Shown here one piece after another: positions 47,703-51,430 of a stretch of 64,000 nucleotides of DNA. Below the pieces are notes generated by a model. The model was not told where the DNA came from. It worked only from the letters and a program-made list of their open reading frames with translations, and ran no database searches. The first letter of the stretch is position 1; every line of letters begins with the position of its first letter. The stretch is from Candidatus Nitronereus thalassa (lineage in GTDB: Bacteria; Nitrospirota; Nitrospiria; Nitrospirales; UBA8639): positions 62,001-126,000 of the forward strand of contig NZ_JAQOUE010000002.1 in assembly GCF_032191465.1 (NCBI RefSeq), given 5' to 3'. Position numbers and translations under genes: made by a program.

Positions 47703-48482
47703 GTGATCTTAGGCGCTGGTTATACCGGAAGGGTTCTCTATCACCAAGCGTTGGAACAAGGATGGATAGTTTACGCTAGCAGTCGGACCCCTGAAGCTCA
47801 CTTACCTTATGTGGACCCTCTCGCTCGAATTCTTTTTGACTTAGAACAAACAAGCACCTGGCAAAACCTTCCCACTCCGTCCCACATTGTGTGGTGTTTT
47901 CCGACCTTACCAGGACCTATGGCCGCCGAGCTTGCCGAGAACCTAACTAATAAGGGATGTCGGCTTCTTCTCTTAGGAAGCACCTCAGCCTATCCACCAA
48001 AGGCTGAAGATTTGACCGATGAACGATGCGAAATTAACAAGACTCTTCCCCGAGTACAGAGCGAAGAACATTTGCGAGAGGCCTACGGCGCCATCGTCCT
48101 GAGACTCGCCGGCCTGTACGGCCCAGGCCGGCATGTCTTGAATTGGATTCGAAGGGGAAAAATTAGAAACACTCCCCGCTACGTCAATCTCATTCATATT
48201 GAAGATGTGGCTGCGTTAAGTCTTGCCGCCTTGCAACAAGCCTCGCCGGGATCAAGTTACATCGTCAGCGATGGGACGCCCCGGCTTTGGGCAGACATTT
48301 GTGAGTACGCTTCGACTCAATGGCACATCCCCATCCCCGAACCGACCACGCCAAAGGACGCAGGAAAACGCTTGTCGCCTCAAAAAATATTACATGAGTT
48401 GCAATATGAATTAAGGCATCCTGATCTGTTTAAAGAATTAGATGAGATTGAGAGGGAGGGGGAAGAGATTATTGAAACCTGA
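47703..48482 (+). CDS. SDR/epimerase-like oxidoreductase (YeeZ-type)
   Basis: A 259-residue protein with the NAD-binding start LVILGAGYTGRVLYHQALEQ and later GAIVLRLAGLYGPGRHVLNWI plus VNLIHIEDVAALSLAAL, typical of extended SDR proteins close to YeeZ. The substrate is unknown. The frame can be read from GTG 47703, but a better ribosome site (AGGAG) lies before an ACG or ATT codon about 30 bases upstream. The real start may therefore be earlier and non-standard. Confidence 0.8.
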   Translation: MILGAGYTGRVLYHQALEQGWIVYASSRTPEAHLPYVDPLARILFDLEQTSTWQNLPTPSHIVWCFPTLPGPMAAELAENLTNKGCRLLLLGSTSAYPPKAEDLTDERCEINKTLPRVQSEEHLREAYGAIVLRLAGLYGPGRHVLNWIRRGKIRNTPRYVNLIHIEDVAALSLAALQQASPGSSYIVSDGTPRLWADICEYASTQWHIPIPEPTTPKDAGKRLSPQKILHELQYELRHPDLFKELDEIEREGEEIIET

Positions 48483-48973
48483 AGGATTCTTTCTGAAGAA
48501 TTTATTATATGTGGGCTTTCGCGCCCACACGACGAGGTTCTTTTGTTTCGGCAAAAGGACCCAAAACCATTTTCGCCCGTGCGCGGCCCTACGGGTCCCT
48601 TCGGCTTCGCCCTGAATAAGATGGCTCAGGAACTCGCGCTGCTCAAATAGCCTTCGCCAAAGAAGCCGATTCAGGGCGAAGCCGGAGCCGCGCCCAACGC
48701 GGATTGAAAAAAGCTTGTGACATTGACTGCCACCCTAGACTCTCACGCAAAGATTTGACCCTTTATGAAATCAAAATGCTTGTACAACTTGGCATCCGCT
48801 ACCTTCTGGGTAGCTAGGATATAATGGCTCACTTAGTTTAGAATGTTCGACCTCAGGGTTGAATGTGGCCGCTAAAAACCGACAGCTTAGGAAATCCTCC
48901 GGCTGTTAGCGTCTTAACAACTATTGAAAATTAAAAAATTTTTAGAAAACATACAATGTTTGATTCAGAACGC
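48483..48973. other. intergenic region with one structured repeat copy
   Basis: About 490 bases. They hold repeat copy A (48510-48706) and a TATAAT at 48820-48825 without a good -35 partner. No other gene is supported. Confidence 0.5.
48510..48706 (-). repeat. structured interspersed repeat, copy A (inverted)
   Basis: On the minus strand it aligns with copies B and C but has diverged strongly inside. Landmarks are the CCGCGTTGGGCGCGG hairpin, TTTGGCGAAG, a pair of arms containing GGCTTCGCCCTGAAT and ATTCAGGGCGAAGCC, GGTTTTGGGTCCTTTTGCC, and the end hairpin TGTGGGC/GCCCACA. The arms keep pairing although their sequence differs from B and C. Confidence 0.85.
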
Positions 48974-49510
48974 ATGGGAATAAAAATCCTGAAATGTCTT
49001 TTTATTGTAGTTTTAATTGTGGCCTGTGATCCCTATACTTTTCAACTTCAACCGGATTTCACCCATCTTGACGTTCCTCAAGAGGGATATAATGTAAGAA
49101 TTTCAAAACAAGGAATCACCGTCGATCTCAAGGGGAATCAAACTCGATACTACGGTAGCACTTCAGGAAGGTTTTCAATGAAAATTATAAATGGCAGAAG
49201 TAACTCGATGACTTTGGACCAATCAAATTTTTCAATAAAAGTTGATGGTAGGCTTGTCCCAGAGGCTTCATTTCGACTACGCCCTGTGAAAGATTATTGG
49301 TCAAAGAATGACTTCACAAGTCTTCCCATTTTCGCTTTTAGTAGTCCAATTGAGCGCATCACAATAAATCCAAACCAATCTAATGTTGTACTAATTGAAT
49401 ATTCATTTAGTTTCAATACTCCAGGTGCAAGTATGAGCTTCGTCTTTGACTTAGAGGAAAATGTAAATATACAAGGTAAAATTTCTTTTGAAACCCGATT
49501 TGTGTTTTAA
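48974..49510 (+). CDS. lipoprotein, unknown
   Basis: From ATG 48974 the 178-residue product has a lipoprotein signal ending in LIVAC (Cys18). A beta-rich periplasmic part follows (YNVRISKQGITVDLKGNQTR, then FSMKIINGRSNSM, then NVVLIEYSFSFN). The base composition is more AT-rich than its neighbours. It is bracketed by repeats A and B, which suggests it arrived with this segment. An alternative start at 48956 gives six more residues. No family is recognised. Confidence 0.7.
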   Translation: MGIKILKCLFIVVLIVACDPYTFQLQPDFTHLDVPQEGYNVRISKQGITVDLKGNQTRYYGSTSGRFSMKIINGRSNSMTLDQSNFSIKVDGRLVPEASFRLRPVKDYWSKNDFTSLPIFAFSSPIERITINPNQSNVVLIEYSFSFNTPGASMSFVFDLEENVNIQGKISFETRFVF

Positions 49511-49606
49511 ATTTCTACAGTAAGATTTATGTGTCACTTTTGGGGTTGAAGGTTGGGAGCAAATCTTTGATTGAGAATTTTGCAAAATCAAAATTTTCCA
49601 ACACTC

Positions 49607-49836
49607 CCTTCACCCCGCGTTGGGTGCGGCTGGGCCACCGCTCCGAATCCTACTTCTCTGGCGAAGACTGTCTGAGCGTAGCGAGTTTCTGAGCCATAAT
49701 GATTCGGGGTGGTGGACCAGGAACCCCGGAGAGCCTGTTTCTGAACAGGATCGGAGGGGCCGCGCACAGGCAAGAATGGTTTTGGACACTTTTGCCGAAA
49801 CAAAAGTGTCTCGTCGCGTGGGGGCGACACCCCACA
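49607..49836 (+). repeat. structured interspersed repeat, copy B
   Basis: It carries CCGCGTTGGGTGCGG, CCGAATCCTAC...GATTCGGGG arms, TGGCGAAGACTGTCTGAGC, a GACACTTTTG...CAAAAGTGTC hairpin and the end hairpin GTGGGG...CCCCAC. Copy C matches it closely in the same orientation. Confidence 0.9.
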
Positions 49837-49840
49837 TAAA

Positions 49841-49900
49841 ATATTTCTTCAACGAAGCCTATCTTCGGCAAAAACAAAACCAACCTAGATTTCCGAAAGC
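49841..49900 (+). repeat. short repeat next to copy B (matches region upstream of cld)
   Basis: The stretch AATATTTCTTCAACGAAGCC, then TATCTTCGGCAAA and CAACC, is matched at 50985-51055 by AATATTTTTCCAACGAAACC, then TATCTTCCTCAAA and CAACC. The two flanks of the cld gene therefore share sequence beyond the main repeat. Confidence 0.6.
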
Positions 49901-50016
49901 TAAAGTCCGTTCCTATTGTTGAAATTTTGAGCGAATTAAGAATACAAAAAAACTTAGCCCAGCGGTATTCAACGCAAGATATCCTTGTAATAATTTTGCT
50001 CTCCAAAATTCTCAAG

Positions 50017-50113
50017 AAAGGATTTGACTACAAGGAACCTTTAGCCTCAGACCAGTTTTTCACCGGTGGTTCCTATCGACATGTAGTCGATTAGGAACCA
50101 CCATGAATCCTTT
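50017..50113. repeat. nested inverted repeat downstream of cld
   Basis: The outer arms AAAGGATT (50017-50024) and AATCCTTT (50106-50113) enclose inner arms GGTGGTTCCTA and TAGGAACCACC, with TCGAC/GTCGA inside them. The left side also holds GACTACAAGGAACC, which can pair with GGTTCCT and GTAGTC, so two exclusive folds are possible. There is no T-run, so it is not a standard terminator. Confidence 0.6.
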
Positions 50114-50138
50114 CTGGTTACAAATCGGTCCTCAAGAG

Positions 50139-50906
50139 TTATTTTGACAATAAGGCTCCTACCTCGTTCCAAGACTTTAAAGTTCCTAAGACGGTGGGAC
50201 TCCCAAGCCGGACGTTATATTGATCTTCCTTTACCATCCGTAGGGCCAGAACCAGGTTATTGAAATCCTCCAAATTATTGGTTTCGAAAATGGTAATAAA
50301 GTCCGCATCGGCGAGACCTGTGGCGTGGTAGAGCTTTCTTTTCACCGTTTTCAAATAGGGCAGAGTGGGTACGGTGTGTTCTCGAATCAAGGCTACACGT
50401 TCTTCCTTGGGCAGATTCCACCATTCCGCGCTTTTCCTGGTCGGAATCATAATCACGTAGGTCGATGGATCGCCTTCATACTTGGCGGCTTTGAGTTGGG
50501 CCAAGAGATCCGGGAATTCTGGGGCATAATTCAGGCCTTTGGTAATACCGCTGATAGTAAATTCCAGATCAAGATGTTGCCCTAATCCTGACCCTGCAAG
50601 TTTGGTAAGCAGTTCCTGATTGATCTTTGCCTCAGAGGATTGTAGCCGAATCAAGAAATGGGAATCGGTCGTTAGTCCATAGGTCCAATAGGAATCAAGA
50701 GTGATTTGATCTTTAAAGGACTCGACCACCGCCGTCGCCTCCTGAACTCCTTTGGCCTTCTCTTCAATAGAAAGCCTTGTCCACGTAGGGTTGACTTTGA
50801 AGAGGGCAAACGTGCCATGCACTTGGGAACCTGCCGCCAGGGTTAAGGCCGGATTACCTACCAAAAATACCAAGAAACTCATCAACATAACCCTGAAAAT
50901 ATGCAT
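50139..50906 (-). CDS. cld: chlorite dismutase
   Basis: A 255-residue exported haem enzyme that converts chlorite to chloride and oxygen. The signal peptide covers about residues 1-25 (VFLVGNPALTLAA). The C-terminal haem-binding half has REHTVPTLPYLKTVKRKLYH: His177 is the expected proximal haem ligand and Arg190 the distal catalytic residue, 13 positions apart as in characterised enzymes. Further landmarks are FITIFETNNLEDFNNLVLAL and PTVLGT. The length fits the long periplasmic form. AAGGAGG four bases before the ATG fixes the start. Its flanks carry copies of structured repeats, and cld is known to move between bacteria. Confidence 0.96.
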   Translation of the reverse strand: MHIFRVMLMSFLVFLVGNPALTLAAGSQVHGTFALFKVNPTWTRLSIEEKAKGVQEATAVVESFKDQITLDSYWTYGLTTDSHFLIRLQSSEAKINQELLTKLAGSGLGQHLDLEFTISGITKGLNYAPEFPDLLAQLKAAKYEGDPSTYVIMIPTRKSAEWWNLPKEERVALIREHTVPTLPYLKTVKRKLYHATGLADADFITIFETNNLEDFNNLVLALRMVKEDQYNVRLGSPTVLGTLKSWNEVGALLSK

Positions 50907-50984
50907 AAAACCTCCTTAAAAGGATAAAGAAATCTGGATTGCCGAGAATAGGGTCTATCGATGTAGTGTTTCGTTACAACCTTT

Positions 50985-51055
50985 AATATTTTTCCAACGA
51001 AACCTATCTTCCTCAAAGAACAGGCAACCAAAATTCTCGATTAAAAACGTCGGGA
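50985..51055 (+). repeat. short repeat upstream of cld
   Basis: It matches 49841-49900 in its first half. Its second half (TTCTCGATTAAAAACGTCGG) resembles the repeat at 51400-51430 (ATCCCCGAAAACAAACGTCG). Confidence 0.6.
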
Positions 51056-51112
51056 ATGAACACACCTGAAACCTTTTGCCGAGTTTTGGAGTCTTAAGAA
51101 TACCAAAGGTTC

Positions 51113-51314
51113 CGCTTCACCCGCGTTAGGCGCGGCTGGGCCGCCGCCCCGAATCCTACCTCTTTGGCGAAGACTGTCTGAGCCCAGCGAGTTTCTGAGC
51201 CATAATGATTCGGGGCGGTGGACCAGGCACCCGCTGGGCCGCGCACGGGCATGAATGGTTTTGGGCACTTTTGCCGAAAAAAAAGTGCCTCGTCGTGTGG
51301 GGGCGACTCCCCAC
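51113..51314 (+). repeat. structured interspersed repeat, copy C
   Basis: It has the same order of blocks as copy B: CCGCGTTAGGCGCGG, CGCCCCGAATC and GATTCGGGGCG arms, TTTGGCGAAGACTGTCTGAG, GGCACTTTT...AAAAGTGCC and GTGGGG...CCCCAC. Paired arms have changed together compared with copy B. Confidence 0.9.
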
Positions 51315-51349: not shown

Positions 51350-51430
51350 GAGATCCTTCGCAATGCTCAGGACGACAGAAAAATGAAAAAGGAAAACCTG
51401 GATCCCCGAAAACAAACGTCGGGGATGACG
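51350..51430 (+). repeat. second dispersed repeat (CAGGACGACAG...ACGTCGGGGATGACGG)
   Basis: The stretch from about 51350 (GATCCTTCGCAATGCTCAGG, then ACGACAG) to GTCGGGGATGACGG at 51430 includes the arms CCCCG/CGGGG. Its second half recurs at about 51030-51052. It looks like a common bacterial intergenic repeat. Confidence 0.5.

Follow-up and report, generated by a model that had tools for sequence, protein, structure and literature searches.

Three copies of a structured repeat bracket a lipoprotein-like gene and the chlorite dismutase gene cld in Candidatus Nitronereus thalassa, and the question they raise is what such repeats are and what they have to do with the genes lying between them. 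The stretch of DNA analysed, called here the window, comprises 64,000 nucleotides (G000:C2:62001-126000) of a genome of 4.01 Mb in two contigs (G000). The open reading frames are mechanical calls, and the whole-genome counts given for G000 rest on searches of the genome. The features of the locus are the following:

47703..48482, + strand: NAD-epimerase-like gene, left flank, with its 3' end facing copy A
48511..48701, - strand: repeat copy A, full length (model 1-213), inverted, 204 bits
48956..49510, + strand: lipoprotein-like ORF of 184 aa, cargo between A and B, AT-rich (GC 0.36)
49616..49835, + strand: repeat copy B, full length, 207 bits, inward-facing partner of A
49784..49811, + strand: P4 hairpin of B, GGACACTTTTG CCGAAA CAAAAGTGTCT, the helix conserved best, three of its pairs covarying freely
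49818..49835, + strand: P5 terminal hairpin of B, GTGGGGGCGACACCCCAC, the outer end, followed by the AT-rich tail
50139..50906, - strand: chlorite dismutase gene cld (PF06778, 1.4e-27), between the direct copies B and C
51122..51314, + strand: repeat copy C, full length, oriented as B, 209 bits
51505..52965, - strand: CPBP-type membrane protease (by sequence inspection), right flank, with its 3' end facing copy C

The first-pass annotation had described three copies between 48510 and 51314, with the AT-rich lipoprotein gene between A and B and cld between B and C; the copies were recovered at nearly these coordinates and the placement of both genes was correct. The paired changes that it quoted were all found as well: the arms GACACTTTTG/CAAAAGTGTC of B are replaced by GGCACTTTT/AAAAGTGCC in C, the central arms of A read GGCTTCGCCCTGAAT/ATTCAGGGCGAAGCC, and the end hairpin changes from GTGGGG/CCCCAC to TGTGGGC/GCCCACA. 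Copy B carries an extra optional hairpin (about 49723-49751) and copy C has lost one loop-closing pair (CCGAAAAAAAAG). The fold z-scores with respect to dinucleotide shuffles are -3.2 for A, -3.2 for B and -3.0 for C. Copy A turns its 3' (outer) end towards the 3' end of the epimerase-like gene, and an ortholog of this copy is placed at the same gene (G001:C49:33782-33973) in a genus-mate belonging to another species (G001). Small separate repeats (AGATCCTTCRCTCNGCTCAGGATGACA and ATTCCC..GGGAAT) could be seen at 51353-51375 of the window and in the flanks of L018, L019, L024, L027 and L030, often 10-50 bp from the outer end of the large repeat; ATTCCC..GGGAAT resembles dRS3/CGTC REPs.

The three copies had been guessed to belong to a dispersed genomic family, and this proved to be so. 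BLAST with copy B gave 44 matches in G000, and a covariance model built from 30 copies of this genome, A, B and C among them, gave 65, of which 53 reach at least 80 bits and are referred to here as strong copies; the bit scores listed above for A, B and C were obtained with this model. The repeat is about 190-245 nt long and contains five or more helices, in the + strand order P1 (GCGCGGC/GCCGCGC), a long P2 whose loop holds P3 and an optional hairpin, another optional hairpin, P4 (core CTTTTG-CCGAAA-CAAAAG, with three covarying pairs), P5 and the AT-rich tail. The 3' end is precise, and the 5' extension varies among subfamilies. A subset of the copies (L010/L043:4180-4290, L002, L019, L028) has a common 5' extension, the signal peptide-like SILPKNTPELRSFQLVLSVVLFFTASPALGA, which continues into the repeat; a second subset, to which A, B and C belong, has a different common extension of 40-50 bp.

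Selection for a fold is strongly supported by covariation. In the 30 copies of G000, 90.9% of the cells are paired and 25 of the 58 pairs show double changes, with 125 double-changed cells with respect to 45±6 after shuffling (0/500 shuffles). The 129 copies from other genomes, whose alignment leans towards the model because they were aligned to it, hold 1130 double-changed cells with respect to 367±15 (0/500 shuffles), and this number falls to 164-252 when the partners are slid by one to three columns. Many of these copies keep the architecture despite great sequence divergence (P1 of L032, for example, is GACGCC...GGCGTC). Collecting all genomic copies under a covariance model, the check proposed in the first-pass annotation, thus yielded compensatory changes in excess and bore out its claim of selection for folding, for which three copies alone were insufficient. 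The fold may be selected through the processing of single-stranded DNA, or through RNA produced by read-through.

With the covariance model the family was found in 29 of 60 relatives, in six of the ten genera of the window's own Nitrospirales family, and no copy was found with it in 23 genomes from three other families of the same order. The nearest relatives are about 80% identical to G000. The exact core pattern also occurs on a small number of MAG contigs with the labels Gammaproteobacteria and Nitrospinota, for which binning errors are possible; the copies on these contigs score up to 83 and 100 bits. The phages, plasmids and viral contigs searched contained no match to the repeat, and spread on plasmids or phages was rejected on this ground. 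Membership of a known Rfam RNA family was likewise rejected, as nothing in Rfam matched at the gathering score (best chance match, E=2.1).

The copies are distributed in a regular manner. Another copy lies within 3 kb of 39 of the 53 strong copies in G000, and 21 neighbour pairs within this distance were seen where 2.1 are expected. Neighbours in opposite orientation have their 5' ends facing inward in all 15 cases in G000 (P=3e-5) and in 21 of 22 cases in other genomes, where copies were fetched by pattern (P=1e-5). The outer end faces the 3' end of a gene in G000 (25 of 31 cases, P=0.0009) and elsewhere (101/148, P=1e-5), and on the inner side no preference for gene-end direction was observed. 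This rule is reversed in the genus g9 (9:16), where long same-orientation arrays occur. The first-pass annotation had the copies of the window and their orientations right, but it did not see this main pattern, a fixed inward-facing pairing around AT-rich genes. Long same-orientation arrays with an integron-like look are present in G010:C3 (L031-L033) and G020:C1 (L034), with VapBC, HicBA, DUF5615/PIN and other small genes between the copies.

The DNA between inward-facing partners is AT-rich and foreign-looking, with a median GC of 0.4175 (n=36), with respect to 0.486 between same-orientation neighbours (n=66, P=1e-10) and to an average of 0.487±0.035 for the genes of G000. A mere effect of the convergent context was rejected, as single genes placed between convergent genes without repeats have an average GC of 0.486 (n=75). 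The cargo consists mostly of orphan genes, some of them defence-like, and the outer flanking genes are largely housekeeping. Cargo and neighbouring array genes encode a TIR protein (L043), HEPN and MNT-HEPN proteins (L036, L037), AbiU2 (L046) and an AbiJ domain protein (L048), and elsewhere SEFIR, CAP12-TIR and caspase proteins together with many orphans. PADLOC gave no clear enrichment over a control of flanking genes, which matched more models (112 vs 32) because a few helicases match many of them; the defence character of the cargo is therefore a qualitative remark. In the window, the lipoprotein-like ORF (48956-49510) has no match in Pfam or PADLOC; a homologue (63% identity) lies in G001 at an unrelated place with no repeat beside it. 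G001 has no cld, only a distant paralogue (31%); in two other genera, three genomes carry cld at 86-87% identity, with no repeat adjoining it.

A comparison of G000 with G001, one species pair, and of the L041 locus in five more genomes showed that repeats persist at common loci while the cargo is replaced. Six loci have a repeat-bordered flank common to both genomes (L035, L036, L037, L041, L043 and L046). The L041 copies, placed at the same core gene, are 0.93 and 0.91 identical between G000 and G001, with respect to a background of 0.78. Once the repeats are masked, the contents of the common loci show no homology apart from short edge matches at L036 and L037; the one matching segment at L046 is part of the common flank. 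At L043, G001 has an unrelated AT-rich gene in place of the TIR cargo and lacks the second repeat; beyond G001, the genes flanking this locus are not adjacent in other genomes. The first-pass annotation had held that copies always lying at fixed syntenic sites would speak against its reading: in the nearest relative several copies are indeed at fixed sites, but they enclose other genes there. In the repeat-free G024 the convergent genes of L041 are 18 bp apart, an empty site, and in the repeat-free G018 a 530-aa gene occupies the same site. Such sites are thus slots in general, with repeats at their borders in the repeat-bearing lineages. The two genes flanking the L035 pair of G000 are found on different contigs of G001 (L181/L182), where each has kept a repeat; this looks like a chromosomal rearrangement by recombination between copies.

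Same-orientation neighbours resemble each other more closely than random copies do, with identities of 0.862 vs 0.791 in G000 (none of 5000 samples was as high), 0.814 in G001 (P about 0.02) and up to 0.99 elsewhere. At L037 the duplication extends 156 bp beyond the repeat into the end of the flanking gene. In the window, the closest relative of B in the compared set is C, and vice versa (0.90 identity; alignments of 81% over 152 nt and 91% over 79 nt), and this closeness, together with the lack of cld in G001, fits an acquisition of cld beside a resident repeat that became duplicated. Tandem duplication followed by insertion may also have produced this arrangement. About 120 bp located 3' of B (49840-49960) resemble the stretch just before C (50985-51112), so that the similarity on the two sides of cld is not limited to the repeats.

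These observations suggest a new kind of border for slots where genomes swap accessory genes. The reading preferred here, to which we give an even chance, is that the repeats form a large BIME/REP-like structured family bordering accessory-gene slots, with the cargo exchanged by recombination at them. The repeats would mark the slot borders by adjoining gene 3' ends, often as inverted partners with facing 5' ends, and the cargo would enter and leave by recombination for which the repeats, sometimes together with the adjoining gene end, serve as homology or as fragile sites. Homologous integration beside a resident repeat would leave a duplicated direct repeat, the arrangement of B-cld-C and of the MNT-HEPN locus, and an inverted pair could extrude hairpins and break. 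We infer that recombination at the repeats moves the cargo. Against exchange at the repeats counts the mean identity between copies (about 0.79), which is low for efficient homologous recombination; the gene of G018 indicates that slots can fill without repeats, and the homologues of the lipoprotein-like gene and of cld that lack adjoining repeats, together with the reversed rule in g9, count against the slot-border reading.

The strongest rival, possible although clearly less probable, holds that the repeats are BIME-like and act on RNA at the ends of genes, either by stopping antisense read-through that starts in the AT-rich genes or by protecting the ends of transcripts; the cargo would be merely tolerated at the convergent intergenic positions where the repeats lie, and they would not contribute to its movement. 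The abutment of outer ends on gene 3' ends in G000 (25:6) agrees with such a role, as do the filled site of G018 and the position of known REPs downstream of genes and between convergent genes (PMC3733652). The wobble pairs count partly for it and partly against it. On the + strand they exceed C-A mismatches (428 to 150), which hints that this strand acts single-stranded, whether as RNA or as DNA; however, the bias is confined to P3 (151:21) and P4 (157:8), with P1, P2 and P5 balanced, and 120 of the P4 wobbles belong to one nearly fixed G-U column. The aligned copies have no U-run after the hairpins, by which an intrinsic terminator was ruled out, and the DNA upstream of the copies showed no conserved promoter. 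The reversed gene-end rule of g9 and the ordinary GC of the genes between repeat-free convergent genes also argue against an RNA-level role.

A more specific version of exchange at the repeats, which we consider improbable, takes them as the cis sites of a new gene-cassette system, integron-like but without IntI or attC. It would involve, with the same low probability, some recombinase specific for the folded single strand, by which single AT-rich accessory genes are captured or exchanged at the inner ends of the repeats.

Movement of the cargo with two structured inverted ends as a unit by a trans-acting enzyme, as in a composite transposon or mobile insertion cassette, is very unlikely. The inverted layout around single genes, the many copies and the patchy cargo would suit it, but the identity of inverted partners does not exceed that of random copies (0.787 vs 0.791 in G000; 0.749 vs 0.783 in G001), and the partners thus do not behave as the two ends of one transposon; a MITE or mobile insertion cassette, with its related terminal inverted repeats, was rejected on the same background identity. 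Orthologous copies in the second species enclose different cargo, empty inverted pairs 57-131 bp apart occur in G001, and there is no recurrent recombinase among the most frequent cargo families.

Slightly less credible still is a REP-type repeat moved by a single-strand transposase of the RAYT (Y1) or IS91-like (Y2) kind, in spite of the hairpins, the strand-biased wobbles and the precise 3' end with its variable 5' extension. A RAYT/TnpA-REP tyrosine enzyme was the mobiliser suggested in the first-pass annotation; however, no Y1_Tnp was found in G000, nor in the repeat-rich G005, G012, G017, G021, G041 and G043, and the domain is present in the repeat-free G003, G006, G007 and G008, its presence being uncorrelated with repeat content. 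A RAYT-mobilised REPIN was rejected accordingly, no Y1 tyrosine transposase flanked by repeats being found, and an IS91/Y2 element was rejected since G000 has no Y2_Tnp. Neither RAYT nor IntI nor IS91-type enzymes track the repeats across the family.

An integron attC site consists of an R-box pair, RYYYAAC ... GTTRRRY, around a fold. Identity of the repeats with attC or a relative is the least probable reading and was rejected: the g9 arrays, the cassette-like cargo and the GTTGGGC at the 5' end of own-genus copies (which fits GTTRRRY) recall it, but in the fold this motif sits at the wrong end and g9 copies lack it, no complementary R-box pair was found in five loci tested, and full IntI scored above the cut-off only in G001 and in G007, which has no repeats. 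In G001, two integron integrases reach the full score and a third contains a stop (G001:C99 (L188), G001:C39 and G001:C78); directly downstream of the integrase on G001:C99 lies a structured repeat, where an empty inward-facing pair begins.

With this family, a lineage of nitrite oxidisers gains a strongly covarying structured element that is found neither in Rfam nor in the plasmid, phage and viral collections searched, and extragenic repeats, which are mostly regarded as clutter, are linked to a physical arrangement in which accessory genes turn over. If exchange is guided by the repeats, they mark dozens of slots in each genome for finding new single-gene defence or stress systems, and the old question of the function of BIME-like repeats becomes testable. 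The family also offers a possible route for chlorite dismutase into the G000 nitrite-oxidiser genome.

The repeats have parallels in four known systems. As in integron cassettes, folded repeats alternate with accessory genes in arrays; unlike them, the present repeats lack attC boxes, form inverted pairs and occur in a genome (G000) without an integrase. Paired inverted hairpin repeats are also typical of RAYT-associated REPINs, from which the family differs in the lack of a RAYT, in being ten times the size and in the persistence of orthologous copies between species. REP/BIME sequences (GTAG and CGTC superfamilies) are extragenic, present in many copies and often arranged as inverted dimers downstream of genes or between convergent genes; DNA is known to insert between dimer partners, and CGTC families have no known dedicated transposase (PMC3733652). 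The present repeats share the extragenic location, the high copy number and the inverted dimers at convergent or downstream positions, but they measure 190-245 nt with several helices instead of one hairpin of 20-40 nt, have a single polarity in G000 and enclose AT-rich genes between partners. TCGTC precedes P5, as a CGTC tag would, but the stem starts with G-C and the tail is ATAAAATA, whereas CGTC REPs have stems beginning with AT pairs and a CCA tail, both missing here. In Neisseria, minimal mobile elements (Saunders and Snyder 2002, cited in PMC4269198) place differing accessory genes, often restriction or defence genes and of lower GC, between conserved genes that different genomes have in common. 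The alternative cassettes between conserved genes found here, in one species pair and at L041 in five more genomes, are similar, although the borders of the Neisseria elements, in that account, are the conserved flanking genes themselves and here a structured repeat is located at each border. Judged by size and tag, therefore, the repeats are not tagged REPs; they are BIME-like in position and pairing, and minimal-mobile-element-like in the turnover of their cargo.
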